Virus record (IMG/VR): IMGVR_UViG_3300034105_000506
Location: 1-43,538 of that record
DNA: 43,538 nucleotides
From: a virus
Strand: one strand, 5' to 3'
Shown here in pieces: positions 5,470 through 27,000 of the stretch. The first letter of the stretch is position 1, and the number at the start of each line of letters is the position of its first letter. The notes beneath the pieces were generated by a model that saw only the letters and a program-made list of their open reading frames with translations, was not told the origin of the DNA and did no database searches. A program made the position numbers and the translations under genes.

Positions 5470-5473
5470 AATG

Positions 5474-10975: not shown

Positions 10976-11241
10976 ATCTTTACCTTCTTAATTGTTTTAA
11001 TACAGCCAATCGGTATGCAATTAACATCCGATACAATAGAACCAACATCATCCCAAGTAGCAGCAACAGTAATGTACTCTTGATTACACTCATAGAGTTT
11101 AGCAATACTTATACATTGATGGGGGTGCATATCATAGATGTCTTTCTTATCCATCCATGAGTCAGCATACCCAGAGATATCTTCCCATTCGATAATAACA
11201 ATTGCGTTAATTAGTTTCTCTAACTCAGTATCAAACACCAT
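10972..11241 (-). CDS. hypothetical protein, 89 aa
   Basis: Starts 19 bases after the tRNA-Lys gene with AAAGGA seven bases before ATG. The sequence has mixed strands and helices (INAIVIIEWEDISGYADSW...YECNQEYITVAATWDDVGSIVSDVNCI), two cysteines and a basic tail. No family recognised. Its message must be separated from the tRNAs by processing. Confidence 0.68.
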   Translation of the reverse strand: MVFDTELEKLINAIVIIEWEDISGYADSWMDKKDIYDMHPHQCISIAKLYECNQEYITVAATWDDVGSIVSDVNCIPIGCIKTIKKVKI

Positions 11242-11259
11242 GATAGTATCCTTTCTTAG

Positions 11260-11331
11260 TGGGACAGAAGAGACTTGAACTCTTAACCAATCGGTTAAAA
11301 GCCGACTGCTCTACCATTGAGCTACAATCCC
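11260..11331 (-). tRNA. tRNA-Lys (anticodon UUU)
   Basis: Folds as a full cloverleaf: acceptor GGGATTG with CTGTCCC (one T-T mismatch), D stem GCTC/GAGC, anticodon stem GTCGG/CCGAT around loop CTTTTAA, T stem AAGAG/CTCTT around TTCAAGT. Discriminator base is A and CCA is not encoded. It reads AAA/AAG, frequent in this A+T-leaning genome. Confidence 0.92.
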
Positions 11332-11336
11332 TATAG

Positions 11337-11409
11337 TAGCACGGGTGGGAGTCGAACCCACACTACACAGATTTTAAGTCTGTAGACTCTGCCATTGGTC
11401 TACCGTGCC
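11337..11409 (-). tRNA. tRNA with anticodon UAA (Leu), short variable loop
   Basis: Acceptor GGCACGG pairs with CCGTGCT (G-U at the end), D stem GAC/GTC, anticodon stem ACAGA/TCTGT around CTTAAAA (anticodon UAA), T stem GTGGG/CCCAC around TTCGACT, discriminator A, no CCA. The variable region is only five bases (GTAGT), whereas bacterial Leu tRNAs normally have a long variable arm. The anticodon is clear; charging with leucine is inferred. Confidence 0.85.
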
Positions 11410-11412
11410 ATA

Positions 11413-11463
11413 GGTAGGATACATAGCATGATAGGGTCAAAGCCTATTGTATATGCACCTACC
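11413..11463 (-). other. tRNA-like hairpin between tRNA-Leu and tRNA-Arg
   Basis: A 51-base element fills the spacer. Its outer stem is GGTAGG/CCTACC and its inner 5-bp stem is ATAGG/CCTAT around a 7-base loop CTTTGAC. The inner part has the exact geometry of an anticodon arm (anticodon position UUG). The D and T arms are missing. It could be a decayed tRNA-Gln, a processing signal, or an armless tRNA-like RNA. Confidence 0.45.
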
Positions 11464-11467
11464 AAAG

Positions 11468-11541
11468 CGTCCCTGACTGGACTCGAACCAGTAACCTATC
11501 GGGTAGAAACCGATGCCTCTATCCAATTGAGATACAAGGAC
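11468..11541 (-). tRNA. tRNA-Arg (anticodon UCU)
   Basis: Acceptor GTCCTTG/CAGGGAC, anticodon stem ATCGG/CCGAT around TTTCTAC (anticodon UCU), variable loop AGGTT, T stem ACTGG/CCAGT around TTCGAGT, discriminator G, CCA not encoded. It reads AGA, a codon often rare in hosts. Confidence 0.92.
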
Positions 11542-11547
11542 AGTGGT

Positions 11548-11973
11548 TTAAAGTTCAGCAACATGCACATCAATAACATCAGCAAGTTTAGCGAATGACA
11601 TACCATGATCATTCAGTTCTGCCAAAGAGTCTTGTGCATGTGATGCATTAGTGAATCGTCCAAGTGCATCGTGCATACCTGCCCATTCACGAACACGCAA
11701 TGGTAACACAAGACTATCATTATCATAGACAGTAATGGAGTCATCACCTATACTCAACATCTGAGTGTGTTGAAGGAATTCATCTGACTTACGAGTAACA
11801 ACCTTAACATCTAACTCATCAGGGTTCTGTTGTATATACAGATCACACAGTACACCAAGACAGCAGTACATACATGCTCCATTAATATCTGTGGCATGTA
11901 GTTTACCTTGCCCTTGCTGATAAGTACCAGACTTAAGAGCATCAACCCATTGCTTAGCAATATCAATCTTCAT
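11548..11973 (-). CDS. conserved phage protein of unknown function, 141 aa (CCLGVLCD motif)
   Basis: The start at 11973 has AAGGA at good spacing; an ATG two codons earlier is less well placed. The product opens MKIDIAKQWVDALKSGTYQQ and carries the cysteine-rich CMYCCLGVLCDLY motif (about residues 35-47), which is characteristic of a phage protein family of unknown function. LREWAGMHDALGRF-like sequence (VREWAGMHDALGRF here) and a C-terminal LAELNDHGMSFAKLADVI helix also fit that family. It overlaps the gene before it by 11 bp and ends six bases before tRNA-Arg. Confidence 0.8.
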   Translation of the reverse strand: MKIDIAKQWVDALKSGTYQQGQGKLHATDINGACMYCCLGVLCDLYIQQNPDELDVKVVTRKSDEFLQHTQMLSIGDDSITVYDNDSLVLPLRVREWAGMHDALGRFTNASHAQDSLAELNDHGMSFAKLADVIDVHVAEL

Positions 11974-12241
11974 TGTCATCTTCCTTATAGTTAGGATCAA
12001 TAGAGAGAACACGCTTCATCTCATTAATATATTCATAACCTGCAGTAATCATTGCACCTTCAAGATGGTCTTCCCTAAAGGTAACATACCCATCAGTCTC
12101 CTTGTAATGCTTAGGATCTAATGTCATCTCTTCAGGTGTCCACATAGCAACAGCATACCCTTGCTTACGAATCCAAGCGTATGCTTGGTATACATTCTCT
12201 TCAATACTTTCATCCTTATTGTACACAAAGACATCAGCCAT
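11963..12241 (-). CDS. hypothetical protein, 92 aa, paralogue of the preceding gene
   Basis: The start at 12241 follows GAAGGA at seven bases; the longer open frame upstream only overlaps the neighbouring gene. The product shares a pattern with the 74-residue protein encoded just before it. Both have YxWxRxxGxAV, then a TPEE/TPDD box, PKxxK, and an LExAMxxA..YI C-terminal helix. This marks a tandem duplication with divergence. Acidic (ends KEDDNED). Function unknown. Confidence 0.75.
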   Translation of the reverse strand: MADVFVYNKDESIEENVYQAYAWIRKQGYAVAMWTPEEMTLDPKHYKETDGYVTFREDHLEGAMITAGYEYINEMKRVLSIDPNYKEDDNED

Positions 12242-12458
12242 TGTAGTATCCTTCCTTAAGCCATTCAATGTAGTTAGTAGCAGCCGCTTGCATCTCAAGT
12301 TCTACTGTCTCTCTATTAATCTTATCCTGTTTAGGTTCAACTTCTAAATCATCAGGCGTAAGTATAGTAACAGCAAACCCATGAAGACGGAGCCAATCAT
12401 ACATACGATCAGCAGTCTCATAGATAGTTTCATTAGCATCTAAGTCGGGTAAGATCAT
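12234..12458 (-). CDS. hypothetical protein, 74 aa, paralogue of the following gene
   Basis: Starts after AAAGGA, 14 bases from the tRNA-Ile gene, and overlaps its paralogue by 8 bp. Seen: MYDWLRLHGFAVTILTPDDL, aligning with AYAWIRKQGYAVAMWTPEEM of the next product, and a C-terminal helix AAATNYIEWLKEG aligning with ITAGYEYINEMKR. No outside family recognised. The pair may act as a heterodimer or serve as a diversified effector set; both ideas are inference. Confidence 0.75.
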   Translation of the reverse strand: MILPDLDANETIYETADRMYDWLRLHGFAVTILTPDDLEVEPKQDKINRETVELEMQAAATNYIEWLKEGYYNG

Positions 12459-12471
12459 AAGGTTCCTTTAA

Positions 12472-12547
12472 TAGAAGGGGCGGGAGTTGCACCCACATAC
12501 TCACACTTATAAGGTGTGCGCTATAACTGCGTTTCAGCCACCCTTCT
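12472..12547 (-). tRNA. tRNA-Ile (anticodon UAU)
   Basis: Perfect 7-bp acceptor AGAAGGG/CCCTTCT, D stem GCTG/TAGC (closing G-U pair), anticodon stem CACAC/GTGTG around CTTATAA (anticodon UAU), T stem GTGGG/CCCGC, discriminator A, no CCA. The T loop is TGCAACT instead of TTCAANT and the D loop lacks a clear GG pair, so tertiary contacts are unusual. UAU reads AUA directly, bypassing the lysidine-modified CAU tRNA used by most bacteria. Confidence 0.85.
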
Positions 12548-12551
12548 CTGT

Positions 12552-12770
12552 TTACTTCTTCTTCTTCTTGAGAGGGACAGTTCTGTTATCCATACGCATA
12601 CCACTAAGTTGGTTGTCTAATAGTTGACACCACTTAATCAAACCATCACATCGTTCATTCACTTCATGCAGTCGAGTATCATAATGCCTACGACTTAAGA
12701 TGTCACTAACAATATTGATAACAACATGTACAATAAATCCAAACATAAGAATCAGTAGCGGGATATCCAT
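12552..12770 (-). CDS. small membrane protein, 72 aa
   Basis: An N-terminal hydrophobic helix (IPLLILMFGFIVHVVINIVSDIL, about residues 3-25) is followed by a charged soluble part and a lysine-rich tail (PLKKKKK). One transmembrane segment with a cytoplasmic tail is likely. It is the last of five coupled genes and its ATG sits in the stop of the gene before it (TAATG). The tRNA-Ile gene begins four bases after its stop. Function unknown. Confidence 0.75.
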   Translation of the reverse strand: MDIPLLILMFGFIVHVVINIVSDILSRRHYDTRLHEVNERCDGLIKWCQLLDNQLSGMRMDNRTVPLKKKKK

Positions 12771-12982
12771 TAGTCTTCTTCTCCATTAATGTCAGGTAGT
12801 TCTTCAGTCCATTCATAAGTTGGTGGTATATACCAATCTTCAGGGATCATACCACTAACATACGATTTAAAATTAGCATGCATATTCTTAGTCCATGCAT
12901 CAAACTTATCTGCTGGAACTTCACCCACATCAATACCCTTCTCAGTAAGAAGGACAATCATATATGCGGTGATGATATCCAT
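12770..12982 (-). CDS. acidic small protein, 70 aa
   Basis: Joined to both neighbours by one-base TAATG overlaps. About 15 Asp/Glu against 4 Lys/Arg, with acidity concentrated at the C-terminus (EWTEELPDINGEED). Several Trp and Tyr residues near the middle suggest a folded domain. No family recognised. One of four strongly acidic proteins made in series from 13675 down to 12770. Confidence 0.72.
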   Translation of the reverse strand: MDIITAYMIVLLTEKGIDVGEVPADKFDAWTKNMHANFKSYVSGMIPEDWYIPPTYEWTEELPDINGEED

Positions 12983-13197
12983 TAGTCGATACTAATTGAA
13001 AGGGAGATATCAGAGACAGCATCATCAACCAACTCAGTAACCTTCTCACTAATAGCATCCTTGATAAGGTACTTACAATCACTACTCTCAAGGTATGCGG
13101 TAACAGCATGCTCACAGATTAGATTAATCTTATCCGTCAAGTCCTTAGTGATCAGGTCAACAAGCGTAGCAGCAGCAGTTTCAATATCAGTCTTCAT
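12982..13197 (-). CDS. acidic helical protein, 71 aa
   Basis: Predicted mostly helical (TLVDLITKDLTDKINLICEHAVTAYLESSDCKYLIKDAISEKVTELVDDAVSDI). About 15 Asp/Glu against 6 Lys. ATGA overlap with the gene before it and TAATG with the gene after it. No family recognised. Confidence 0.72.
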   Translation of the reverse strand: MKTDIETAAATLVDLITKDLTDKINLICEHAVTAYLESSDCKYLIKDAISEKVTELVDDAVSDISLSISID

Positions 13198-13412
13198 GAT
13201 TGTGTCTCCAATAGGTGGTCGAATTGACCAATGAATAGTTCTTCATCTTCGGTAAGATAGAATTTGTTATGTATCATAGTATCAAAGTCATTCAGCATAC
13301 GCTGAGCATCATCTCTCTTCTTAGGATCTTCGATCCAAAGGAAGAAGACATCAGCAACCTCACCAATAAACTTAATGTTATCAGAGATGATTGTACTACT
13401 AGAGGGTGACAT
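13194..13412 (-). CDS. acidic helical protein, 72 aa
   Basis: About 15 Asp/Glu against 6 Lys/Arg. A hydrophobic stretch FIGEVADVFFLWIEDP is followed by KKRDDAQRMLNDFDTM and a C-terminal LTEDEELFIGQFDHLL helix. Its ATG lies in the stop of the gene before it (TAATG) and its stop overlaps the following ATG. No family recognised. Confidence 0.72.
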   Translation of the reverse strand: MSPSSSTIISDNIKFIGEVADVFFLWIEDPKKRDDAQRMLNDFDTMIHNKFYLTEDEELFIGQFDHLLETQS

Positions 13413-13675
13413 TAGTCTGCTCCTGATGGTAAGGTGTCATAGGTATCCTCTTCACCACGGTAAGGTGTCAATGGATTAAAGTTCAACTCTTCAATAACAT
13501 TATCTAACAACCCTTTGATTGTATCATAGTCAACTATAGTAGGGTAGAAGTCTTTGATATCTACAGTACCCATAGTCCACTCGCCATCCTCAATAGTCCA
13601 CTCAATGCTAAAGTCTACATCAATGTTACCATAGTCTTCAGTATAGATATTCATAGTGTGATTATTAATTCTCAT
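13412..13675 (-). CDS. very acidic protein, 87 aa (possible DNA mimic)
   Basis: 20 Asp/Glu against 4 Lys/Arg in 87 residues, net charge near -16. The acidic residues are spread along strands (DVDFSIEWTIEDGEWTMG, TVDIKDFYPTIVDYD). First gene after the promoter-like motif at 13.7 kb, with AAGGA eight bases before ATG. Early acidic proteins such as T7 Ocr (gp0.3) block restriction enzymes by imitating DNA. No sequence similarity to Ocr is visible, so the role is only suggested by charge, size and position. Confidence 0.75.
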   Translation of the reverse strand: MRINNHTMNIYTEDYGNIDVDFSIEWTIEDGEWTMGTVDIKDFYPTIVDYDTIKGLLDNVIEELNFNPLTPYRGEEDTYDTLPSGAD

Positions 13676-13693
13676 CCAAGGTTCCTTTCTTCG

Positions 13694-13720
13694 TACTTAT
13701 AGTAGCCCCAACTATTCGGC
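13694..13720 (-). promoter_or_regulatory. candidate phage RNA polymerase promoter (site B)
   Basis: Contains the shared 13-mer ATAGTTGGGGCTA on the minus strand and is identical to site C over 16 bases (AATAGTTGGGGCTACT). Upstream bases TGCCG match TGCCC of site C and AGCCC of site A. It lies in the 98-bp gap before the gene at 13675, exactly where a promoter for the five coupled genes would be. The upstream gap also has GGCAACCTGCC, a short inverted repeat. Confidence 0.6.
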
Positions 13721-13773
13721 AGGTTGCCGATAGTGCAAGGCTTTGTGTTTCCCCGGCGCACACCGGATACCAT

Positions 13774-13974
13774 CTAGGATTGTTGTAGGTTAGTACGCAC
13801 CCTACCCATATGATCTTCGTCCCCATCGGCAACGGCTTTACCATAATTTGTATACCACCATCCATAGGATAGGGCATCTGTCTTGTCTCTGAATCCATTG
13901 ACATATACTCCATCTACTGTGACATTATACCACATCTCTCCTTGATACAACGCCTTGACAATCTCATACTTCAT
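13774..13974 (-). CDS. hypothetical protein, 66 aa
   Basis: The start at 13974 has GAGG nine bases upstream and overlaps the gene before it by 11 bp; a TTG two codons earlier is not needed. The product MKYEIVKALYQGEMWYNVTVDGVYVNGF...DALSYGWW looks like a compact strand-rich domain. A frame in the other phase across the same bases gives a less protein-like product and was not used. Function unknown. Confidence 0.68.
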   Translation of the reverse strand: MKYEIVKALYQGEMWYNVTVDGVYVNGFRDKTDALSYGWWYTNYGKAVADGDEDHMGRVRTNLQQS

Positions 13975-14110
13975 CTGCAATTACCTCATCAATGTAATAT
14001 GGATAAGGAAAGTGTTGCATTGCATCCGTGATAATCATCAATGCATTGTCTGCCTCTTGTGATTCAACATCATCAATCTCTGGGATCTCTACAACCATAT
14101 AGATTTTCAT
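13964..14110 (-). CDS. hypothetical protein, 48 aa
   Basis: The frame runs from ATG at 14110 (ATGA overlapping the stop before it) to TGA inside the next gene. The product starts MKIYMVVEIPEIDDVESQEA and ends PYPYYIDEVIADEV; it is acidic, with a strand-helix pattern. It exactly fills the space between its coupled neighbours, which is the main support. No family recognised. Confidence 0.65.
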   Translation of the reverse strand: MKIYMVVEIPEIDDVESQEADNALMIITDAMQHFPYPYYIDEVIADEV

Positions 14111-14295
14111 GGGTTCACCATAGGGTAAGAGTAGATGTCTACATTAACTCCGGCATAAGTCAGTCCAAGAGTCATAGCATAACGCTTAGCGTCATGTAAA
14201 CTATCAAAGATAATCTTTACTTGTCCATTCATCCGCACCACATAGCACGGGCTAGTAGTCTGCTTAGTCTTAGACTTCTTCTTCAAGGTTTTCAT
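14107..14295 (-). CDS. hypothetical protein, 62 aa
   Basis: The start at 14295 follows GGAG at six bases. A longer frame would overlap the gene before it by 62 bp without a ribosome site. The basic N-terminus (MKTLKKKSKTKQTT) is followed by a compact domain YVVRMNGQVKIIFDSLHDAKRYAMTLGL. No family recognised. Confidence 0.68.
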   Translation of the reverse strand: MKTLKKKSKTKQTTSPCYVVRMNGQVKIIFDSLHDAKRYAMTLGLTYAGVNVDIYSYPMVNP

Positions 14296-14476
14296 ACTTG
14301 TCTCCAAAGATAATAGCAATGATCTCAACATCTCTATATAGATAACGCAATCCCTTACTTACTTGTTTAGTAGACCCAGCCAATACAAAGTGTGAGCATT
14401 CAATAAAGATCTCACCCTCTCCTTTAATGGATGGGTTATATATAACAACAACATTATACGGGGCTAACTCTTGCAT
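14270..14476 (-). CDS. hypothetical protein, 68 aa
   Basis: TAATG coupling with the gene before it, and GGAGG lies close to the start. The product is strand-rich (YNVVVIYNPSIKGEGEIFIECSHFVLAG) with an acidic end (DKYENLEEEV). No membrane segment and no family recognised. Overlaps the following gene by 26 bp. Confidence 0.68.
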   Translation of the reverse strand: MQELAPYNVVVIYNPSIKGEGEIFIECSHFVLAGSTKQVSKGLRYLYRDVEIIAIIFGDKYENLEEEV

Positions 14477-14649
14477 TAATCCTCCAGTTGGTCAAAGATA
14501 ACAGAACGGAGATGATCCTTACGCTTACTATAGATGTAACCAATAGAGATGATTACATCTAACCGATCCACAGCCCATAGACTCATGAACTCTTGTTGTA
14601 ACATTTCATCCCTATCATCATAGATAATTAGTACATTCCATAGTGTCAT
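14476..14649 (-). CDS. hypothetical protein, 57 aa
   Basis: The frame begins MTLWNVLIIYDDRDEMLQQE and ends SVIFDQLED, with AAGGA 12 bases before ATG. Its TAA overlaps the following ATG (TAATG). VLIIYDDRDEML resembles the first strand and loop of a small alpha/beta domain. No family recognised. Support comes from the coupled layout and protein-like sequence. Confidence 0.62.
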   Translation of the reverse strand: MTLWNVLIIYDDRDEMLQQEFMSLWAVDRLDVIISIGYIYSKRKDHLRSVIFDQLED

Positions 14650-14652
14650 TGC

Positions 14653-14739
14653 TTAATATTCCTTATCAGTAAAGAGGTAGTTAATATAACAACTCAATAC
14701 AATACATACAATAACCCATGATGCAACCATCATAATCAT
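14653..14739 (-). CDS. tiny membrane peptide, 28 aa
   Basis: MIMMVASWVIVCIVLSCYINYLFTDKEY: almost entirely one transmembrane helix with a short charged tail. Its ATG overlaps the stop of the 34-residue membrane gene (AATGA), so the two would be made together. Very short, hence moderate confidence. Paired tiny membrane peptides in early phage regions may act on the host envelope, but nothing here shows the role. Confidence 0.5.
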   Translation of the reverse strand: MIMMVASWVIVCIVLSCYINYLFTDKEY

Positions 14740-14840
14740 TGCTTATTAATTTCCTTGTTCTCATCAATACAATAGAGTAGGCATGCTACAATGAGCACAC
14801 CAATCATGCCACCCAAGATAGGGAATATGATACCAATCAT
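14736..14840 (-). CDS. tiny membrane peptide, 34 aa
   Basis: One hydrophobic helix (MIGIIFPILGGMIGVLIVACLLYC) followed by the charged tail IDENKEINKQ. ATGA overlap with the 94-residue gene before it and with the 28-residue gene after it. The regular coupling at both ends is the main support. Function unknown. Confidence 0.55.
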   Translation of the reverse strand: MIGIIFPILGGMIGVLIVACLLYCIDENKEINKQ

Positions 14841-15121
14841 ACCTCTACCTCCGTCCACTTACTAACACCATTCATCTTATTGATAGTCTTCTTAAGTGAG
14901 TCAACATACTCCTCAAGTTTACCCACAGTAGCGGCATAATACTTAAGGGTATTAGTAAACCCTTCATTGCCCGTCTTCAAGATAGCATTAGCATCTTGTA
15001 AATCATCGCACTTACATGCTAACTCGTGAGTCTTTACCAAGAGTTCTTGTTCTCTCTTCTCAAGGTATACAATGTACGCTTGTGCTGCAGTCAACATCTT
15101 CTTTACTTCTGTTTCGTTCAT
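14837..15121 (-). CDS. coiled-coil protein, 94 aa
   Basis: Predicted almost wholly helical with leucine/valine heptads (AAQAYIVYLEKREQELLVKTHELACKCDDLQDANAILKTG... LEEYVDSLKKTINKMNG). Starts with ATG overlapping the stop before it (ATGA), AAGGAG six to eight bases upstream. A structural or partner-binding role is likely. No family recognised. Confidence 0.72.
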   Translation of the reverse strand: MNETEVKKMLTAAQAYIVYLEKREQELLVKTHELACKCDDLQDANAILKTGNEGFTNTLKYYAATVGKLEEYVDSLKKTINKMNGVSKWTEVEV

Positions 15122-15372
15122 GCTGTCTCCTTCTTAATAAAGTAAAGATACCCTTCGAACTTAATATCAAAGGAGTCATTGGACATCTCTCTTGCCCACT
15201 CGAAGCATCCTTCTAAAGTATCAAACTCTAGTGCATTAATGACATAAGAACCCTCACCCTTATAGGCAAAGACCTCAAAGCCTTTAACACATGACTCAAC
15301 AATGATACGAGTGCCAGACTTAAACTCCATCTCCACAGTCGGATCCCACTCAGCCTTATCGCCACTATACAT
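15118..15372 (-). CDS. hypothetical protein, 84 aa
   Basis: The start at 15372 has AAGGAG six bases upstream. An earlier in-frame ATG at 15423 falls inside a strong hairpin with no ribosome site, so it was rejected. The product MYSGDKAEWDPTVEMEFKSGTRIIVESCVKGFEVFAYKG is strand-rich, followed by a helix (LEGCFEWAREM). First gene after the hairpin-rich gap, which forms its leader. Function unknown. Confidence 0.7.
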   Translation of the reverse strand: MYSGDKAEWDPTVEMEFKSGTRIIVESCVKGFEVFAYKGEGSYVINALEFDTLEGCFEWAREMSNDSFDIKFEGYLYFIKKETA

Positions 15373-15410
15373 ATCATTCTCCTTGTTAAAGAAAGAAAGC
15401 AAACCATACG

Positions 15411-15634
15411 AAAGATATACCATAGGTTTCCCTACGGCATACCGTGATAGGAAATAGATTCACTAGGCAACTATCATACCTAGTGAATAGTTATTCTGTA
15501 TGCCTACGACAAGCATAGTATCGGTAACTAACCTTTGCTGATTGTTCACGTTTTAATAGTCAGCAAACTATCTAACATTGAGGAGGATGTTAGCAACCAA
15601 AGGTATACCATAGGTTTCCCTACGGTATACCGTA
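15411..15634 (-). ncRNA. hairpin-rich gene-free element, possible small RNA
   Basis: A 0.26-kb gap between coupled genes that holds six inverted repeats on the minus-strand transcript. Two 30-base hairpins (15602-15631 and 15414-15443) each have a 13-bp stem and a GAAA loop. They are near-copies whose differences keep pairing through G-U pairs. Between them lie CTAACAT/ATGTTAG with loop CCTCCTCA, TTTGCTGA/TCAGCAAA, a weak TATGC/GCATA, and ATTCACTAGG/CCTAGTGAAT (10 bp, perfect). No open frame crosses it. RNase III-type cutting at the two outer hairpins would release an RNA of roughly 160 bases. An RNA function is inference. Confidence 0.55.
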
Positions 15635-15907
15635 TTAGACATAGTGAAGGACAGATGTAATGTCCAACATATTAACATGCATACACGCTCCATCATCATG
15701 GCAAATACTGAGCCATTGATTAGCAGATACCTGACGCATCTCAATCTTAATTGAATCCCTAGCCCATCCCGGCAATGATTCAGCAACCATATCAGCCAAC
15801 CGACTCTCTTGTACATCCTTCATATCACTAAAGACACCAAGGGGAAGCGTTCCCTTATCATTATGCGCGGTGAGTACCTCAAGACTCCGACTTGTTACTA
15901 CGATCAT
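15635..15907 (-). CDS. hypothetical protein, 90 aa
   Basis: The start at 15907 follows AAGGAG at five to six bases; a longer frame upstream overlaps the preceding small gene in another phase and was rejected. The product MIVVTSRSLEVLTAHNDKG...SLPGWARDSIKIEMRQVSANQWLSICHDDG appears globular. Its stop lies four bases before the first GAAA-loop hairpin. No family recognised. Confidence 0.68.
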   Translation of the reverse strand: MIVVTSRSLEVLTAHNDKGTLPLGVFSDMKDVQESRLADMVAESLPGWARDSIKIEMRQVSANQWLSICHDDGACMHVNMLDITSVLHYV

Positions 15908-15917
15908 AGTGTCTCCT

Positions 15918-16067
15918 TTAGATTGACCAAGATACAAACCGATTAGTTGCAGCACTAACAACCTCAATACTATTGATGCATAGATTAGTATTCTTACGAA
16001 TATAATATACGCATTGATCATATGTACCTACGCAGAGAATCCTTCCTTCGTATTCTACATGAAACAT
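15918..16067 (-). CDS. hypothetical protein, 49 aa
   Basis: A frame from ATG at 16067, with AAGGAGG eight bases upstream and TAATG overlap with the stop before it, to TAA ten bases before the next ATG. The product MFHVEYEGRILCVGTYDQCVYYIRKN...SIEVVSAATNRFVSWSI looks like a small strand-helix-strand domain. Too short to assign. Confidence 0.68.
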   Translation of the reverse strand: MFHVEYEGRILCVGTYDQCVYYIRKNTNLCINSIEVVSAATNRFVSWSI

Positions 16068-16303
16068 TATACTACCTCCTTGTTAATTGTGACATACAAG
16101 GTGGAGCCATTGCTCCGGGTTGTATACTCTTCCTTGCAGCAATCAATATACTTGACTGCCTCTTCGGTATTCAGGAAATCTTCTCGGACATCCGATGCAC
16201 ACAATGAGTACATACTACATCCACCACCATCAGTAGCAGGAATTTGTTGCAACACAATCGTCATACCTGCCTTAAACGCTTCGGTAATACTTTCGAGTGC
16301 CAT
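16067..16303 (-). CDS. hypothetical protein, 78 aa
   Basis: AAGGAG precedes ATG by six bases; nine bases separate it from the gene before. Five cysteines (GGGCSMYSLCAS, IDCCKEE) are striking in so short a protein and might bind metal, but the spacing is not a recognised zinc motif. C-terminal NGSTLYVTINKEVV is strand-like. No family recognised. Confidence 0.7.
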   Translation of the reverse strand: MALESITEAFKAGMTIVLQQIPATDGGGCSMYSLCASDVREDFLNTEEAVKYIDCCKEEYTTRSNGSTLYVTINKEVV

Positions 16304-16312
16304 AGTGTCTCC

Positions 16313-16639
16313 TTAAAGGTGCAGATCAACGGCTTGAATAGCAGCCGTCAGACTATAGTCCACCACAGATACAACCACTTTCTTATCATATTCAACAACT
16401 CCCGCATCCTTAGATGGATCCTTCAAAGTGAATCCGAATTGGCGACCAGCATATGCTTTCTCAGCATAGCGAATACCATACTTCCGCATGGTAATTGTAG
16501 CAGCCTTCTCATAAGGCAATTCAAATACCTTGGCAACATAGTCAATCAAGGTAGCGGCATCACCCATAGTTCCCGATGCCTTGGCACGGATAGCATGAGT
16601 ACGAATAACTTCCATCTGAAAGGCTTGTGGCAATCGCAT
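16313..16639 (-). CDS. hypothetical protein, 108 aa
   Basis: AAGGAG is five to six bases before ATG. The first half is helical (FQMEVIRTHAIRAKASGTMGDAATLIDYVAKVFELPYEKAATITMRKYG). The second half is strand-rich with a basic, aromatic AGRQFGFTLKDPSKD segment. The helical half could suit nucleic-acid or host-protein binding. No family recognised. A strong hairpin lies in the gap before it. Confidence 0.7.
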   Translation of the reverse strand: MRLPQAFQMEVIRTHAIRAKASGTMGDAATLIDYVAKVFELPYEKAATITMRKYGIRYAEKAYAGRQFGFTLKDPSKDAGVVEYDKKVVVSVVDYSLTAAIQAVDLHL

Positions 16640-16671
16640 AGTGTTCTCCTTGTTTGGGACAGTAGATCAAT

Positions 16672-16697
16672 CGGTACACCCCTTGCAAGGTGTACCG
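16672..16697 (-). other. strong intergenic hairpin
   Basis: CGGTACACC and GGTGTACCG form a 9-bp perfect stem around an 8-base loop in the 64-bp gap between two early genes. No run of T follows on the minus strand, so it is more likely an RNA-processing or stability element than a terminator. Confidence 0.6.
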
Positions 16698-16703
16698 GAT
16701 GAT

Positions 16704-17108
16704 TCACTCTCCGATAGTTGGCAGAAGGGAATCGAAGTACGCTACCTGATCCTTGCTAGCCTTGGCAGGATTCTTAGCAACAACATCCGCTTCCCACTTC
16801 TGCCTTGGGAAACATTCCTGCAGATACGTTCGGGTGAAGGTAGCGAATCGAGTATCATCCTTCAGGTTAACATCAAACTTCCCCTTGATATAGGATGACA
16901 AAGTAATCTTATCACCATTCGGGAGAATATAGATTGAACGCTTCATGATAGCAGACATTGAACGGTTATCCACCACACCATCCTTGGTCAATACCTTGCC
17001 TTCATTGTCTTCCTTGTACTCATTACGATACCCAAGATTGATAGCATCTTGGAAAGTAGCGGCAACATTAAACGACTTGGCAATGGTAACAAACTTTGAA
17101 TAGTCCAT
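16704..17108 (-). CDS. hypothetical protein, 134 aa, first early gene
   Basis: First gene after the 0.9-kb junction, with GAAAGGA seven bases before ATG, so it is probably among the first proteins made. The product begins MDYSKFVTIAKSFNVAATFQDAINLGYRNEYKEDNEG and has a central SMSAIMKRSIYILPNGDKITLSSYIKGKF strand region. It ends with an AKNPAKASKDQVAYFDSLLPTIGE tail. No membrane segment and no recognised family. T7's first genes counter host defences, but nothing in the sequence shows that here. Confidence 0.75.
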   Translation of the reverse strand: MDYSKFVTIAKSFNVAATFQDAINLGYRNEYKEDNEGKVLTKDGVVDNRSMSAIMKRSIYILPNGDKITLSSYIKGKFDVNLKDDTRFATFTRTYLQECFPRQKWEADVVAKNPAKASKDQVAYFDSLLPTIGE

Positions 17109-17150
17109 ATTGTTCCTTTCGATAGTTACTTCCCGATGCCACGCGGCGAC

Positions 17151-17188
17151 CGGATAGGGAACCCTACTTCCGCAGGGTACCCTATCCG
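17151..17188 (-). other. two-tier hairpin in early leader
   Basis: CGGATAGGG pairs with CCCTATCCG (9 bp). After an A/A mismatch, ACCCT pairs with AGGGT around an 8-base loop. It sits 43 bases upstream of the first early gene. No T run follows, so a processing or leader-stabilising role is more likely than termination. Confidence 0.65.
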
Positions 17189-17189
17189 A

Positions 17190-17217
17190 TATCCCCCACG
17201 AAAGAACGCAGGGGATA
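17190..17217 (-). other. hairpin TATCCCC/GGGGATA
   Basis: A 7-bp perfect stem around a 14-base loop, directly abutting the two-tier hairpin. Together they form a structured leader for the first early transcript. Confidence 0.5.
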
Positions 17218-17298
17218 CCGGAAATTGTTATTCATTCACGGGTGAATCTTGCTAGGATTCTTTCCGTACTTCCCGTTAGACATCCGGGAGAGTGCATA

Positions 17299-17319
17299 CC
17301 TTGCCCCAACCAAGGGGCG
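17299..17319 (-). promoter_or_regulatory. degenerate copy of the promoter-like motif (site D)
   Basis: On the minus strand GCCCCTTGGTTGGGGCAAGG agrees with site C at about 14 of 20 positions, including GTTGGGGC, but lacks the following TA. It may be a weak promoter in the early leader, or simply a GCCCC/GGGGC hairpin. Confidence 0.3.
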
Positions 17320-17534
17320 GCAGGTAGTCCGAGTAGTCAAAGTGTGCGCGGGTAACCCGTTTGCATCCGGGTGTTCCACCGTTCATTCACACACCTATCG
17401 TACTTGCCGTTCACTTTCCCCTTGAGCAGGACGCGGAACGGGCGAGCGGTTGAATTGTCAAAGAAGGATCAGCAAACGGACGCTGACAATCTACAACGCA
17501 TCAGCCAATTAAAACCGCAGACCATGGCAGCAAA

Positions 17535-17623
17535 GTCCGATAACTTATTGGGGCTAATATAGGTTATCGGACGTTGCCCTGCAGCGGTTATCGGACGTGC
17601 CGACCCCCTCAGGTTATCGGACG
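17535..17623. repeat. iteron-like repeats of GTTATCGGAC
   Basis: Three direct copies of GGTTATCGGACG begin at 17562, 17586 and 17612 (24 and 26 bp apart). One inverted copy of the 10-base core lies at 17535-17544. Spacing near two to two and a half helix turns suggests protein-binding sites, for example for replication, packaging or a repressor. It does not match the DnaA box. Confidence 0.7.
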
Positions 17624-17627
17624 CGCC

Positions 17628-17664
17628 GGGGTGACGGGGGGTTGCGCGGGGGGATTTAGGGGGG
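17628..17664 (+). other. G-quadruplex motif
   Basis: Four G runs (4, 6, 6 and 6 long) with loops TGAC, TTGCGC and ATTTA fit the canonical quadruplex pattern on the plus strand. That is the template strand for all genes. It directly follows the iteron-like repeats. Confidence 0.65.
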
Positions 17665-17853
17665 ATACCCCTTCGCTAATTTTTGACCCCTCTAGTCGAT
17701 TCCCAGATTAAGTAGGGATCCCCCTAGCTTGCCCTGTGTGGGGTTGTTTGTGTTGATGTCCTCCGGTAGCCCCAGAGGGATCCGGGGACCCCATAGGAAA
17801 TCGACAAGGGATCAACCGGGGGGTAAACCCCGGAGTGCTCTATTCTTTGAATA

Positions 17854-17883
17854 ATCCTAGATCCCCTTTCGGGGACCTAGGAT
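17854..17883 (-). terminator. strong 13-bp GAAA-loop hairpin after the last late gene
   Basis: ATCCTAGGTCCCC and GGGGATCTAGGAT pair over 13 bp (one G-U) around GAAA on the minus strand, 168 bases after the giant gene. Only TTATTC follows, so it may slow or end late transcription or be a processing site. It has the same 13-4-13 design as the two hairpins near 15.5 kb. Confidence 0.55.
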
Positions 17884-17932
17884 CTGTATGTTTATATAAT
17901 ATTAAAATTAACACTTAGGTTAACTAGGGTTA

Positions 17933-17951
17933 CCCTTAGGTTACCTAAGGG
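17933..17951. other. perfect palindrome, possible protein-binding site
   Basis: CCCTTAGGT and ACCTAAGGG flank a single central base. The one-base centre cannot form a normal RNA loop at full pairing, so a dimeric DNA-binding site is more likely. Related CTTAGGTTA and CTAGGTTAC sequences occur nearby at about 17913 and 18005 within an A+T-rich stretch. Confidence 0.5.
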
Positions 17952-18030
17952 ACTATGTATTACTATATAATATAATAACATAATTTTAAAAACTTAAAGA
18001 CAGTCTAGGTTACTCAAGGTATCCCTTAAG

Positions 18031-18059
18031 TATCTATCTAGTAGCCCCAACTATTGGGC
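18031..18059 (-). promoter_or_regulatory. candidate phage RNA polymerase promoter (site C)
   Basis: TGCCC then AATAGTTGGGGCTACTAG on the minus strand; the core overlaps the stop codon of the giant gene. It shares 16 identical bases with site B. It reads from the end of the late genes into the junction, like the end promoters (phiOR/phiOL) that T7 uses for replication and packaging. Confidence 0.6.
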
Positions 18060-21000
18060 ATTACCTAGGAGATCACCTAGGGGACCTGAGACACCAGATA
18101 CACCATTTGACATGTCTCCACTATAAGGGGTTCCAGCTTTCTTGAGTCTAGCCTTTTCAATGGCTTGTTCCTCAAGCATATAGTTTCTGGGTTGTACCTT
18201 AGGCATAGTAGGTAATGTAGGTGTACTCTTCTGGGAACGCTTAAGCTTAGCATAAGGATAAGGATCTCTTTGGATTACATCTAGGTAAGACTGTAGTGCT
18301 CCCTTCTGATCCAAGGCTCCTGAGGCTTCTAGGGATCTAGCAGCCACAGCAACTGGACTACGGTTTAACAGAGAGTTAACTGAGGTGATATCACCAACTC
18401 CCTTTGCAACCTTCATGTAATCCGTTTGATCACCTGTGGCTCCTTCTAGGATACCACCGACACCCCGGACTATATCCTTACCAGCAGAGGCAGCAGCCCC
18501 GATACCGATAGATTCCATTGGGCTACCGTAAGATCTCCAAGTACCACCAGACATGTAACTCAAGCCACTCAGGACCTGCTCTAGGGCAGCTTGGGATGTA
18601 CCCAAGATAGGGGATGACTTGGCTACACGGACAGCAAAGGCAGCTGGGTTGTCTGCAAACTCCTCAAGGATATCTTCACCCTCTCTACCAGCAACCCACT
18701 CACGGAACAAACCAATGAGAGTATCAATAGTTCCATAGAGAACTATATTAGCTGCTAGGTAATGGAGAGTACTCCGGCTACCGTAGTCTAAGATAACACT
18801 ATCTTGGAATCCACGCATGTACGAAGAAAGAGCATACCAGAGTTTACCAAGTGGTGTCTTAGCATCAATAGAAGTAACTCTACCCAGACCCGTAGGTTCA
18901 GGTGATGAGTGCTTAACCACAAGGTCATCCAAAGCATGTCCATAAGAACTAATGACTTGTTCTAATACCTCTGGCTTAATGCCAGCTACAGGATTAGATC
19001 TGTTGTTCCAATATACATCAACCATGTTGTGGATATTGACACGACCATCACCCTTAGGGTCTACTGCCTTAATCAGATAGTCCAGATGTCTAATCTTCTC
19101 TGGAGAATTCAATCCATACTTCAAGAAGACCAAAGCTTCTTGTGGGTTGAATCCAAAGCCATACTGTCTGGCAATGGTAGAGAACTGTTTCCAAAGCTTA
19201 CGCTCAGCTCCGGCATCAGTCTCAGCTGCAATCATATAGTCTTGCATGATCTTCATTAACTTAGGATCTTCCAAGGCTGTGAGTAGTTTTTGAATTCTAC
19301 CTTTTTTGATATGCTTGTATAGCATGCGCTGTAGTCTAGTTTTAGCCATTGATCTGGTCATATTGGTTATAGCCTGTAGGGAACCAATAGACTCAGCAAC
19401 CTTAGATACAACCTCTAGACCACGAACACCAGTATCAGCTACACCCCGACTTGGGTTTGAGTTAATAAACTTTGTCTTTAGTTTAGAATCTAATTCAAAT
19501 GCCCCTTGCCCTGCTTCACCTAAGAAGCGAGAACTAAAGTCATGTTTAATATTTTCTAACCCAAAGATCATATCCCCAAGCTCAGAGTTATTCAGGAAAG
19601 CATTCTTAGAGAAACGAAGATCACCTGCAAGATACCGTAGGTTCTGAATCAGAACTCTAGGTAACGATAAAGGGTTTGCCTTTAAGGTTTCCATAATAAG
19701 TTCTGGCAAGGCTCCAAGGAAGTATCCCGGAGCAACCTTAACTTTTAGTAATGCTAAACTAATACGGGCAGCATATTGATCTTGATGCGGAAGCATAGGA
19801 AGAGTATCTGCATTATACATGTACTCATCCTTAAGTCTTTGAATACCAACTGTGATGTCTGACTGTCTGGCTTCGGTCTGTCCTTGTGACCAGTTCTCAG
19901 CCTTAGCTAAAGCATCAACATCTTCTCTAGCCTTAACAGCTATGTGTGAGAAGACATCTTCCATTGTTACACCACGAGTACCCATGAGTCTATCAAGTTC
20001 CTTCTGGAAGACGAGTTCAAAGACTCGACCATTCAAGAAGTAATTGTAAGACTCAGCAATGTTGGTTCTAATGTGTTTCAGAATAACAGGATCAGCTAAT
20101 ACTTCCTCAGGAATTAAACCGGGTACAGCTAGAGCTGTCTGTTCTTCCTGACCAACACGCATAAGGGGTCTATCAATGTTCGTACCAGTCTTTCTGTTAT
20201 GTTCACCATAGGCTCCCTTCTTGGTCTTGAAGTCTAACATCTCATTCATTTCAACTTCAATAAGATCTCTACCCTTTAGGTAGTCTTGCCACCGTTGGGT
20301 ATACATAGACTTATTGCCATTGACTGCTTCAAAGTAACGAAGCTGATCTGATTCCGAAAGATCTTTAAGGACCTTAGGCATTCGATATAAAGTAATTACA
20401 CCAGCATCATCTGTGAGAACAAAGTAGTTCTGTGAGTCAGCTCCATTAGCTAACTCAGCTAGAAGGTTTTTCTCACCAACAGTAAGTGGGTGTTCAGATA
20501 CTTCTAGAAGCTTTAGAGTTTCCTTGCTAAAGCTTTGAGTTGAATCACCCGGTCTGTAAGCGCGATCTCCAGCAAACAAGGCAGTACCTCTTGCTTCTTT
20601 TGATGAAGCGACATCTAGCCAACCAAGAACAATAAGTGTATTCACATCTAAGATTGGTGTCTTTAACTTACGCGCTCTACGAGTCTTTACAAGAGCAGCC
20701 ACAAAAGCAGAACGATCAGCTGGACTCATAGCCCCAAAGCTTTCATGGTTCAACTGAACTGGAGCATAGGTCATAGGATCTAATGGCGTACCATCAGCCG
20801 CTAAGACATGTCCCAATCCTGTGTCAGCCTGTAGTTCTAATACAGTTTGATTAGTCTGTCGTGTAACTTTTAGAAGAACATTAGTCTCTGTTGCTACTTC
20901 CTTTGCTAGCTCTGGGGATAACCCTAAAGCCACAAGATCAGCAGGAACAATATTAGTACCTTCTGAAAGCTTGGTATAACTTAGGATACCCACAGCTCTA

Positions 21001-24000
21001 ATCTTATCTGCAGCCAATCCACTATCACGCAGTCTCTTATTAACTAAGAGTTGTTGTCTAGCAATACGAGTAATCATTCTAGCTTCATCAGACTTACATT
21101 GTCTTGCAGTTCGGAAAGCTTCCTTACCTGCTGCAGTCAAGTGTCCTGTCTGTGCTCGGTTGTCTTCAAACAAACGAGATAAGAATCGAATATTCTTCTG
21201 GAGACTTCTAATGGTCTTACCTGTCTGACTAGCAGACTGGGTTGCATTAGACATCCAGCTGTTCATTGCTCTCCACCAATTTCTAGCAGCTCGTTCACTA
21301 CCACCAAAGATTACACCAATGAAATTGCTTTGACGCAATAGAACGGATGCATTCTCTTCGGAGTTACTTGTAGCAGCATCAATAAGTTTACCTTGCTTAC
21401 CCGCTGGAGTTTTCTTTAATGGCTCCATTGGAATAGTTTCTACCTTAGCCGGAACTTCCTCACCAGCCTTAGGGGCTGGAACTGGAGTAGGTTCTGGTGG
21501 TGTAGGTACAGGAGACTCTTCCTTAGTGGCATCACTTACTTTCTTTCGAGGAGTCTTAGACTCCTTGGCAACTAAAGTAAATGCAGTAGCATCCTCAGAT
21601 GTTTTAACAATATTTAATTCATCCAAAAGAATAGGAGGCATGTAAGCATCTCCAACTTCCTTGGCAGCAAGTACCATAAGCTGACGCTCTGATACAGGTT
21701 TGTAACCGGGAACAGTACCAAGCTTCTGAATATTCTCAGCCCGTAACTTATCGACTGTGATCCAGAACTTAGCTACACCATCATCACCAAAGACAGCTCT
21801 GTTAGTTTCAACAATTGCTTTGTTGATAGTAACAAACTTTGTCCATAGCGACAACAGCATAGGAGAATAAGTATCAGTTGCCTTATCTATATTCTGCATT
21901 CGTGTCCAATAGTTCTTCAAGAATAACTTTAAGAACCCTTGGTCCATTCCGTTGTCACGGAGTAGATCCTTATCATCATTAACAACCCGCTCTATTCTTT
22001 CTGTCTCAGTAGTCTTAACAACGTCTGATACAGTCTTTCGTGGAGCAGGGGGAGCAATGCCACCTGTCTTAGTAACTCTAACTGGTGCGCCTTCGCTGGC
22101 TGCAATTGGAACCGGAGTTGAAGGTAGGTCTTCCACAGGTGCTACAGCCGGAGCTGGAGTTGTAGTTGGTTCTCCTACCTCAACCTTAGGGAGTTCAACG
22201 GCAGCTGTTACAGTCTGTACTGGCACACCTTTCTTAACCTTAATCTTGGTTACAGAAGGAACACCCGGCTTAATCTTAGTTTCAGTAACACCCTTAACAA
22301 CCACAGGTGCATCAGCTTGAACTGGCATTACTACACCGTCTGAGAAGACGAGAGCATCAACGCCCATTCTATCTGCAACCTTCATAGTGGATGCCATCTT
22401 AACTTCGTTAGCCATGAACTCAGCTGCGGTCATAGTCATTACTAGTGGCTTCTTAGGAACAAACGACACAGCTTCTTTGGTTGACACTTCACTGTTTTCA
22501 ATGATGGCATCAACTTGTTTCTCTGGTCGTAGTACAGCTTCTGGAACATTACCAGTAACTTCCGAAGTAGCTCTAAACAATGTACCCTCTTCCACCTTTG
22601 TGACAGGTGTGATAACAGGAGCTGGGTCTTTCTTCTTAAGCTTAGCAGCTAAGGCTTGATTCTCTAGCAAGCGACTTCCAGCATCAACTGGATTAGATAC
22701 TGGCTTTGAAGCTGGAGCATCTTCGGCTTGCTTAACAACCGCTTTAACTGGCGTTGGCTTAGCAACAGCTTTGTCAACTGTCTGTTGCGTTTGTTTAACA
22801 TAAGCTAGTAAAGAATCTTGAATACTAACGGATGTATCAGTTGGTTCATATTTAATAGCTTGAGCAATAGTAGCCATCTTTTTTCTTAACGCAGTTCTAT
22901 CAGCACGAATAGCGGAAGGACTTCTTACCTGACCAAGTAACTCAAGAGCTTTAGCTGATAGTGCGTCATCAGATTCAACTACTAACAAACCCTTAGCTAG
23001 TAAAATTTCTTTTTCAGTTAAGAGCGTATTGTTTGTTAAACTATTCCATAATAGAGCATTCTCAAATATGACAGCTCTATATTGTTTTTCAGTTGGTGGA
23101 ACAAACTTGCCAGCTACTGTTGTAGGAGCCGCACCTTCTTGTGTTATACCTTCTTCAGTTTCTAAACTACCCGCTCTTCTAGCTTTTCTAATGTCATCGA
23201 GTACTATATTTTGATTAATTGTGACAGCAAGTTTCAGAAGATCTTTCTCAGTTTTTAAACCACCCGATTCAATTTTACTTTTAATATAAGGTAGTTTGTC
23301 ATAGAGATTATTAATCTGCTCTTCTGTCAGTGTTTTAAAGTGACTAAATTTACTAAAGACTTCCTCAATATTATCTAGAGTAAGTTCTTCACTATAGTCT
23401 TCTAGTGCTGCAAGTTTAGCTTCTTCTTTGACCTTAACTTCTTTTGTCTTTTCTGCTAGCGTTTTGGTAGTTACTTTTTTCTTTTTAGGTTTAGCAGAAG
23501 AAGGAAGTTCCCATTTACCAGAAGTTTTGTTTAAAACAATAGCTTCAGTTTCAATCATCTTATAAATACCAGTTAAGGCTTTTTCAGGAGTCATGTCTGG
23601 ACTATCAAGCAACTTTTGAATTAATACTGGATTAATATTCTGAAGTAGAGTAGGAACACTAAGATGAGTAATATCTTTGTTACTTAAGAATGTGGCAATA
23701 GAATCAATAGCAACTTCCTTAGAAGACCAGAGAGGAACATCAACATCAAAGACACCCTCTGACTTGAGAGTATCAATGTAATTCTTATGATGAACTAGAG
23801 TAACTAGATTAGCAATGTCTGCAAAGCCATTATTATTATAGTACTCTTGTAAAGTACGAATCAATGGTTTATTCAAATATGGATCTGTTATTGCTTGCTC
23901 TATTAAAGCAAGTCTATCTGTGTCACTTAAAATATTCTTTTTATTGGCAACTGTCTCATTCAACTTATTAGGGTTGTTTAAGACTGCAATAAGAGAATCA

Positions 24001-27000
24001 GCTCTAGTTCCCCAGAAGTTAAAAGCGTAAACAATTGGATTTTTATTTGGATCTAAATAATTAGTAGATTCAACTAAAGCTAAATGCCTATCTTCGTAAG
24101 TAGCAGGTAACATAGGAGTAGCATAACTACCCTGCTTAAACTCTTTGGTTTCAATATCAAATAATTTCTCTTGTATAAAACCTAAGCGTCTTCGCTTATT
24201 CATTCCACCCATTTGTTTATATTCTTGGGTGGTAAGTAACCATGCAGTCTTAACTAGCATAGATCCAAATTGAGTTTGCTTATATGAAGTATAAGCATTA
24301 ACCAAGTCTTTCATATACACAGTTAGATTACCTTGAGCATCAATAGCTTGTCTACCGTTACTCTTTAGGATTGCCATTGCCACAATAAGGGATGGGTCTT
24401 GTCTAATTTCAAATAGAAGTTTAAACTCATCCTTAGTTAGCTTAGCTTTTTCAACAACTGATTGTGCATAGTTTGGTTTGTTTTTAATCATCCAATCTCT
24501 AACCACACTGTTGAAAGAATTATAAGTAAAGTTATCAGTCTTATTCTTTGCTGCTTGTGCCATTGCTTCGGCTAAGTCTGGAACAGAAATAGCTCTAGAT
24601 GCAACCATATCAATTTCAGTAATACGAGTAATTAAGTTATTCGCAACTGCATAGTGATCGGAAGAATCAAACATACTAGCTGCAAGGATGATTCCTTTTT
24701 TCATATCATTCAAGATAGACCTAAAAGAAGATACTTCTAGGGGAGCCATTTGTGCTACTGCAAGTTGTGCTTCACTAAATAAAACCTGTGAGAATGTATG
24801 AACAAATACTTCTTCCATATTCTGTAAATGATATTCTGTTAGATAACCCGATGATAGTAGTGGATCGGTTATCTTAGCAACATTTAGATTTAATAAAGAT
24901 GGTCCATAGTTTCTTGTGAGACTATTATACATCTTTAAAGTATCTAAATAAATATCACTTGTTGCGGAGGACTGGAAGTAAGCATGTCCAATCTCATGTA
25001 AGACTGTCATTACTCTTCGTTCTGAACTGTTACCAATCCACGAAGAATTAATTGTTATTGCTTTGGTAACATCATTAAAAGCACCAACAGTAGTATATTC
25101 AATCTTACCAGTTTTTTTATTTACAATAGAATCAATTTCAAACTTTAATCCAAATACTTTAGAATCAAAGTTTAAATGAACTACCGAAGCTAATAGAATA
25201 CTTTGATCAATCTCATTAATGAAACCACCATCTACCATTTCATTTGTGAACTGATAGAACTTCTCAGCATTAGCTTTGTTGCCAGAGACTAATGAAGAGA
25301 ACTTGCTTAGGTCTTCCTTAAGTGCATTGATTAAAACTGTTCGCTTTGGATTCAACTTCTTAATCTTAAGTGCTTCTCTAACAGCAATAGTAAGTCTACT
25401 AGATGGCTTACGCTCTACTCCACTGATGTCTGCTTTCATAGCATCAACCATATTTTGGCTGACTGTATTAGTAATAGCAACTTCAGTGATTGCAGCATCA
25501 AGGATATCTAAGACTTCCTTTGGAAGATCAGCACGGAGTTCTGCCTTCTTTGATGGGTTGGCTACAATCTCTCGCGCTGTTCCCAACAAGCTAACTGCCG
25601 CCTTTTCAGCTGCATCATTCTTAGCTGCTGTAGAGATTACAGTAGATCTAGCTTCAGCAAGATTCTCAGCAACGGTTCTAGCAGATACTTTGACACCACC
25701 AAGGCTATCAGTGAGAGCCTTACGCTCTGGCTTGGACAGAGATTTAGTGTATTGTTTAATCATACCACGCCGCTGTGTTTCCATAGTGGCATAAATCTTA
25801 TCACGGGCAGGAGTTAACTTACCTGCTTCTTTTTCTTTAAGTCTTGTTATAGCAAGCTGATCTTCGGCTGCATACAGAACTCGCAATCTATCTGCTGGTC
25901 CCATGTCACGGAAGGTATCAGCAGTTCCAGTAAAGGAAGCATGTTCCTTGGCTGCAGCACTAGCTGAGTTCTTACGAGACAACTCAGTAACAAACTCCAT
26001 AATGTTACTTAGAGTACCATTAGTACCTGTGCGTTCTGCATAGGCTTGTCTGGTTTCATTGTCTAGCCGTCTAGCCATAGGAACATCAGGGGTTGCTCTA
26101 GCAGCCTCAGGAGTTGTTGCAGCACGAGCATCAGTACGATCTCTAGCTGTGGTAGTCTCTGCTTGGATGCGCTCAGCGGTAGGCTCTACACCCTCTAGGA
26201 TAGTTTCAGTAATTACTTTCTCAGGTACAGGCAGATCTACAGCCACTTCGGTACGGGTTAGCTTCTTATTAAAATAACCTAGAGTTTCCCCAAGGCGTGT
26301 ACCTTCATAAGTAAAGCGTCTGTCTCCACCCATACGAACTACAGCTTCCCCAACAGGGGCAACATTGACACCCTTAAGTCTGTTTAGGAAAGCCCCAGCT
26401 GTACTACCAGTAACTGTAGGCAGCAAACCAAAGCCAACAAAGCCCAATGCAAACCCTTCACCACCAGCCCAAGCAATGCTTGCCACATCAAAGTCTTTCT
26501 GACTTTCTGGATCGGCATAGTTAAGGGCTGCGCTATAGGCAATCAGTTTGTCCTGTCGGGCAGTCTCTTGGAGAGCACTGCCGATACCAAAGATACCACC
26601 TGTCATTACTGCAGAGTTTAGCATTCCTAAGTTCTTAGCATAGGATGGAGCCATACCCAAAGGAAGCTTGGCAATTGTTTCAGCTACATTGCGGACTGCT
26701 CTAAAAGCGGTTAGACCTGTAGTTGCAGTAGTTGCGGTTGCAGCAGCAACAGAGGGTATTAAACTAAGACCCCCTGTTACTACTGTTGCGCCTAATTCTA
26801 AAGCTGCAAATGGAATGGTATCCGGAGAATTTATAATACCACCAACCAAGTTATCGACTAACAGTCTACCAGTATCAACCCATCGTGGTTTGTACTGTTC
26901 AATTCTACTCTGAACATTACTCTTAACTAGAACTTCATTAATTCTATAATTGGCTTCATCTGCATTTGTTGCAGTGTAGATTAAATTAGGAGTAATATTG

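Follow-up and report, generated by a model that had tools for sequence, protein, structure and literature searches.

The stoperators of mycobacteriophage L5 and its relatives are many short asymmetric sites, spread across the early regions and bound by the phage's own repressor. In T7 the terminal repeat is flanked by heptamer repeats (CCTAAAG), and T7-like phages start replication from transcribed origins. DnaA boxes and iterons are asymmetric sites of 9-10 bp that occur in clusters and in both orientations. A fourth kind of site, the FleQ box, is bacterial, and we know of no phage that makes use of it. In Pseudomonas the FleQ boxes, GTCaNTAAAtTGAC, serve an NtrC-family regulator of flagellar genes that is both activator and repressor; the paper describing them found no robust consensus in its two species (PMC6120874).

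The locus described here is a cluster of four copies of a 10-base word at the late/early junction of a T7-like phage. In other phages that carry it (groups B-D, below), the site is like the L5 stoperators in that many short asymmetric copies are dispersed through early regions and partly oriented with transcription; stoperators, however, serve the own repressor of one phage, whereas here one site is found in unrelated phages and in bacterial chromosomes. As in T7, short repeats lie at the late/early junction of a T7-like phage, but word and spacing differ and the site is not confined to T7-like phages. With DnaA boxes and iterons the array shares the clustering of asymmetric 9-10 bp sites in both orientations, but its word departs from TTATCCACA after TTATC, its spacing is variable and no initiator gene was seen nearby. 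FleQ boxes and the phage site both contain GTC...TAA, and differ in sequence and in the arrangement of half-sites (PMC6120874).

The Phage and Its Late/Early Junction

The window, i.e., the whole stretch of DNA analysed, is the entire IMG/VR virus record IMGVR_UViG_3300034105_000506 (43,538 bases), the main genes of which are all on the - strand. A single-subunit RNA polymerase, a primase-helicase, a T7-type large terminase and the one-strand gene order identify the phage as T7-like (Autographivirus-type); the best named match to its RNA polymerase is only 28% identical. Since the contigs of several relatives measure 60-67 kb, the window is probably a fragment, namely the partial genome of a T7-like freshwater phage. 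Four tRNA genes (Lys-TTT, Leu-TAA, Arg-TCT, Ile-TAT) lie at 11259-12547 on the - strand, and a similar set is present in a myovirus record (G001) that also bears the site.

A late ORF of 3232 aa (18051-27749, - strand) ends at the junction; the corresponding giant ORF of relatives has 3258-5139 aa. Downstream of the array, the early genes start with an ORF of 134 aa (16704-17108, - strand) that has no PHROG match. The array is housed in the 942-base gap between these two ORFs, which is the sole long non-coding junction of the phage and the point where late and early genes meet; in a T7-like phage this point is the concatemer junction. From the array to the start of the early genes (17109-17530) the sequence is hypervariable, the window and the related record G011 being unmatchable by eye there and nearly identical in the flanking DNA.

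A sequence-only reading of this stretch had described an iteron-like array of three direct repeats and one inverted repeat with near-identical 12-base cores, bordering a quadruplex motif. All of these elements were found in place. The 10-letter word GTTATCGGAC occurs exactly four times, all within 88 bp, and nowhere else in the window at 0 or 1 mismatch. In transcription order the copies are site 1 (17613-17622, + strand), site 2 (17587-17596, + strand), site 3 (17563-17572, + strand) and site 4 (17535-17544, - strand), the inverted copy nearest the early genes; sites 2 and 3 were likewise exact copies covered by the aligned junctions described below, in which site 4 is invariant (nine of nine). 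The three direct copies have the 12-mer GGTTATCGGACG in common, and neighbouring sites start 28, 24 and 26 bp apart. The word TTATCGGAC is present four times, where a second-order Markov model predicts 0.15 occurrences. At up to two mismatches, 26 matches in the window compare with 21.2 in shuffled sequence, a near-equality that leaves only the exact cluster notable. Sites 3 and 4 could form a hairpin (DNA fold z -4.5 in the window); a hairpin or cruciform reading was set aside, as the structure is lost in the relative L105, where site 3 is degenerate, and absent where the copies are all direct.

The G-run tract bordering the array (17628-17664, + strand) is a potential quadruplex and is only loosely conserved: among nine aligned junctions, C-runs of at least three occur in eight, and four runs of at least four with short loops in three. 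Beyond it lies a box conserved in relatives, GAATCGACTAGAGGGGTCAAAAATTAGCG (17674-17702, - strand), hereafter the junction box, of which each genome has one copy on the transcribed strand. It is faced about 100 bp off by a mirror box, GGAAATCGACAAGGGATC (17796-17813, + strand). Both are GAAATCGAC boxes, and the one on the transcribed strand is kept even in relatives at 48-52% RNA polymerase identity. The junction box may mark a terminal repeat or a maturation site, or may be a promoter; since it occurs only once in each genome on that strand, it was not called a promoter of the phage RNA polymerase. Short repeats of the CCTAAGG/CCTTAGG type (17911-18019) on the late-gene side of the junction resemble the T7 heptamers in place and core.

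Conservation of the Array in Relatives

Absence of the array from close relatives with otherwise conserved junctions had been named in the sequence-only reading as the observation that would speak against it. In the 42 loci of relatives examined (L094-L135), 12 hold the junction box, and in 11 of these 12 the 220 bp downstream of the box include one or more exact sites (two or more in 10), although near-identical loci (e.g., L094/L095, L100/L106, L104/L113) make the number of independent cases smaller than 12. The RNA polymerase of the exception, L129, is 48% identical. This check thus did not speak against the reading.

In nine junctions that could be aligned, the 40 motif columns average 94% identity versus 64% for the 48 spacer columns, and 27 of the 40 motif columns are invariant versus 3 of the 48 spacer columns. 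Site 1 is the same word, GTTATCGGAC, in the opposite orientation in L104, and a variant in that flipped orientation in the likewise diverged L105 and L110. The distance between array and junction box is constant (128-138 bp). T7-like relatives at 45-67% RNA polymerase identity have a form of the junction box and no array; the same was found in the distant relatives G014, G015 and G016, the last compared over 60,000 of its 67,272 bases. Because the motif is kept where the spacers vary, inversion of site 1 is tolerated, spacings fall into classes and sites lie close to promoters (see below), the repeats are best read as putative protein-binding sites.

Occurrence of the Site in Divergent and Unrelated Phages

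Among 2.9 million viral contigs (IMG/VR), 90 stretches were found to have two cores 6-36 bp apart, versus 14 for the reversed core and 7 for a dinucleotide-preserving rearrangement. Start-to-start spacings of the decoy hits are mostly divisible by three, as in coding repeats, and those of the real hits show no three-base phase (54, 43, 40). As the loci retrieved (L004-L093) were picked for having two sites, copy numbers in them are biased and the decoy scans are the fair comparison.

Matches to proteins of the window lineage were found in 16 of 18 loci checked. Among these 16 are nine T7-like loci that encode a TerL 30-38% identical to that of the window and have a GTCCGATAAC array at most 2.6 kb downstream of the TerL 3' end. 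L018, which covers the TerL side, and L069, which covers the early side with an RNA polymerase 25% identical, belong to one lineage and are joined through the same array; the L069 record closes on itself through the array with an exact overlap of 127 bases, as a circular assembly would.

Of 16 records listed, 11 were examined. Site-bearing records include (i) YuA-like siphophages (G003-G005) with a TerL 54% identical to that of YuA, (ii) the myovirus G001, recognised by its baseplate wedge, and (iii) a group with a phrog_2-type terminase (G006, G010). Whole records of these three groups contain 14-44 copies versus less than one expected. The copies concentrate in regions of small ORFs that resemble early regions, and some of the group C sites fall within ORFs. 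Fifth-base variants of the site, TTATGGGAC and TTATAGGAC, are also common, and direct spacings peak at 14-18, 23-28 and 33-36 bp. The site is therefore not private to T7-like phages, since at least three other, unrelated kinds of phage carry it near early genes, and the array of the window is one instance of a motif in a much larger pattern.

No protein common to all four site-bearing groups (A-D) was found at blastp E<=1e-4, a threshold that distant homologues may escape. The window junction had no blastn match in named phages, the array-rich stretches of the other groups had no significant match in phages and plasmids, and in the named YuA-like phage SN1 the 50,000 of 61,858 bases read contain no site. 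A literature search for the motif gave, among the matches listed, only incidental hits and no description of it.

Position of Sites Relative to Promoters

The loci L004-L093 were pooled with the records of groups B-D, and repeated promoter sequences were counted once, giving 158 distinct sigma70-like promoters. Relative to these, sites are over-represented at -100 to -61 (21 versus 5.4 expected) and at -20 to -1 (12 versus 2.9 expected). In YuA-like phages the site either occupies the spacer that separates the -35 and -10 boxes or extends into the -10 box, with which the variant TTATAGGAC partly coincides. Near sigma54-like promoters the phage sites show no enrichment (1 versus 0.9 expected). 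These positions fit a regulator of transcription that acts as a repressor at some promoters and perhaps as an activator at others.

In groups B-D the sites are dispersed through the early region and overlap promoters, as against one cluster of four sites in the window. The sigma70 promoters predicted in the window junction are weak, and no good host promoter was found immediately downstream of the array, which is a gap in the promoter argument.

Sites in Planctomycetota Chromosomes

In a scan of bacterial genomes the pairs were mostly coding repeats, with 58 of 80 spacings divisible by three. Among Phycisphaerae, TTATCGGAC pairs occur in 19 of 298 genomes versus 4 of 298 for the reversed word, and among Verrucomicrobiae in 3 of 286 versus 4 of 286; of the 19 Phycisphaerae cases, some lie in coding sequence and one comes from a phage contig. 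An excess over the reversed word in chromosome counts (79 versus 0 in G018; 60 versus 1 in the Planctomycetota MAG G024) was discounted as host enrichment: 29 of 30 sites in G024 and 18 of 30 in G018 lie within ORFs, so that this control mostly reflects codon use. In G018, 12 of 30 inspected sites are nevertheless intergenic, though 92.7% of the sampled sequence is coding, and an intergenic test over 400 kb gave 5 sites versus 0.23 expected.

Genes next to the G018 sites include those for flagellin and a diguanylate cyclase, the flhG-fliA pair, and flgD, which is divergent from the gene of a sigma54 activator; genes for a transposase and a LacI regulator and others of no assigned family are also among the neighbours. 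At flgD, the palindrome TTATNGGAC-N-GTCCNATAA is followed by TTATCGGAC and then, in several loci, by a sigma54-like promoter. Among the best-scoring 30 of 85 flgD hits, the exact site is present in seven of eight loci with an adjacent FleQ/FlrC-like activator and in none of 22 loci without the activator, a correlation that is phylogenetically confounded; six loci have the palindrome. The adjacent activator matches the structures of ZraR, FleQ, FlrA and FlrC, among other NtrC-family ones. Phages, too, carry this flgD palindrome (TTATNGGAC-N-GTCCNATAA), in three different sequences with the 1-base gap. A site found in phages thus adjoins flagellar genes together with a regulator gene in bacteria, as expected for a flagellar enhancer-binding protein. 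For such a regulator in Planctomycetes or Phycisphaerae, a literature search gave nothing specific among the matches listed.

Other chromosomal occurrences are of several kinds. In five Phycisphaerae genomes (L331-L335) a TTATCGGAC pair with 22-bp spacing, joined in four of them by a third site, precedes a conserved gene that looks coiled-coil-like and starts with MDT; this gene had no Pfam match in the two tested. In L178 the core is part of a coding repeat (VSDN-like, by eye), as may be true of many other bacterial pair hits, and the ORF that bears it resembles a RecG-C/Fic-type regulator. Core copies in L138 lie beside an ORF with an HATPase_c_4 domain. In L157, a 4.9 Mb contig of a MAG called Heimdallarchaeota, group C phage-like DNA (L322, L323) surrounds the site cluster; phage-like DNA in this archaeal MAG is probably due to misassembly or contamination.

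A DNA search of window positions 1-20000 against the 298 Phycisphaerae genomes, with up to two candidates scored per genome, gave among the matches listed only regions over or beside the phage tRNA genes, and a host link through CRISPR was dropped on the same matches. The sole MAG with a site-bearing (YuA-like) phage contig, G017, has its own flgD without the activator and without sites.

Candidate Binder and Alternative Explanations

The sequence-only reading took the array for the sites of a DNA-binding protein and thus a regulatory element. This part of it has gained support from conservation confined to the motif, the flip of site 1, the spacing classes, recurrence in unrelated phages and overlap with promoters, and the array is quite probably a set of protein-binding sites, judged from comparative sequence evidence. 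We would call it a putative cluster of sites, with the half-site TTATNGGAC, usually seen as GTTATCGGAC, to which a sequence-specific DNA-binding protein attaches; the cluster occupies the early control region of a T7-like phage, at its left end or concatemer junction. Whether these are sites of a host-encoded regulator is about evenly balanced in our judgement. A binder from the host is likelier than one from the phage because unrelated phages share the site and blastp found no protein common to them, and the phage early protein first suggested as a binding partner is accordingly the less likely choice.

The only candidate binder with direct genomic support is a flagellar regulator, presumably an enhancer-binding protein of the sigma54 type (FleQ/FlrC-like) from Phycisphaerae-type Planctomycetota. 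Incoming phage DNA would present several sites beside the early genes, the host regulator would bind them cooperatively, and the bound regulator would set early transcription by the host RNA polymerase, by activation from upstream sites and by repression where sites overlap the promoter core. This full chain, including the identity of the binder and the direction of its effect, we put forward tentatively.

It is also conceivable, if on the doubtful side, that the phage array is truly regulatory and bound by another protein, the link to the flagellar regulator being a coincidental recurrence of a short word. The 9-mer is short, and the tRNA-region matches in Phycisphaerae and the G017 flgD without activator leave the host unproven; a coincidence would, however, have to accommodate that phages and chromosomes tolerate change at the same position 5 and share the palindromic geometry, as well as the enrichment at flagellar genes.

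An unlikely explanation is that the sites are operators of a phage-encoded regulator, an immunity repressor or an early/middle switch, that moves between phages together with its operators in the manner of stoperators. It would fit the orientation of copies, which often follow transcription through early regions (36 forward and 3 reverse in G006), and the overlap with promoter cores in YuA-like phages, as is usual for repressor sites. Against it stand the failure to find a shared protein in the four groups at blastp E<=1e-4 and the presence of the same half-site and its variants at chromosomal flagellar promoters.

That phage DNA acts instead as a decoy, titrating a host regulator (e.g., of motility or of the c-di-GMP response) with no direct effect on phage promoters, is improbable. 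Very dense clusters such as the 17 exact sites in about 430 bp of G005 do exceed the need of a single promoter, but the four sites of the window phage are few for titration before replication, and the preferred positions relative to promoters favour local action.

Harder still to credit is a T7-type terminal element, i.e., short repeats beside a terminal repeat that serve concatemer processing or packaging. The late/early junction position, in the window as well as in distant T7-like loci, and the CCTAAGG repeats on the other side of the junction would agree with it; the site is, however, not restricted to T7-like genome ends and is carried by siphophages, a myovirus and others, in early regions and with unrelated terminases, and G014-G016 keep the junction box in some form and lack the array. 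The origin or packaging site that the sequence-only reading offered as an option was not supported, given that the site recurs in unrelated phages whose terminases differ and that T7-like relatives at 45-67% RNA polymerase identity lack the array and keep a form of the box. An iteron-type replication origin, to which the direct repeats, their near-regular spacing and a hairpin of sites 3 and 4 that could aid unwinding might point, is very improbable, as site orientation and spacing differ between relatives, the hairpin is not retained in L105, the adjacent ORF has no PHROG match that would make it an initiator gene beside a regular tandem array, and T7-like phages, with their transcribed origins, have their own primase-helicase and RNA polymerase.

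Implications

Returning to the flagellar regulator as candidate binder, it is possible, though far from certain, that unrelated phages convergently collected the site of the flagellar master regulator of Planctomycetota, so that the switch between motile and sessile states gates or boosts early transcription, or that the regulator is titrated. A single short site recurs in the early control regions of environmental phages that are unrelated to one another, and no close named relative of these phages was found to have it; the site could be used to tag their hosts. The analysis provides a predicted regulatory site and a predicted regulator for flagellar genes of Phycisphaerae, and also a connection, open to experiment, between the expression of phage genes and a regulator of host motility.
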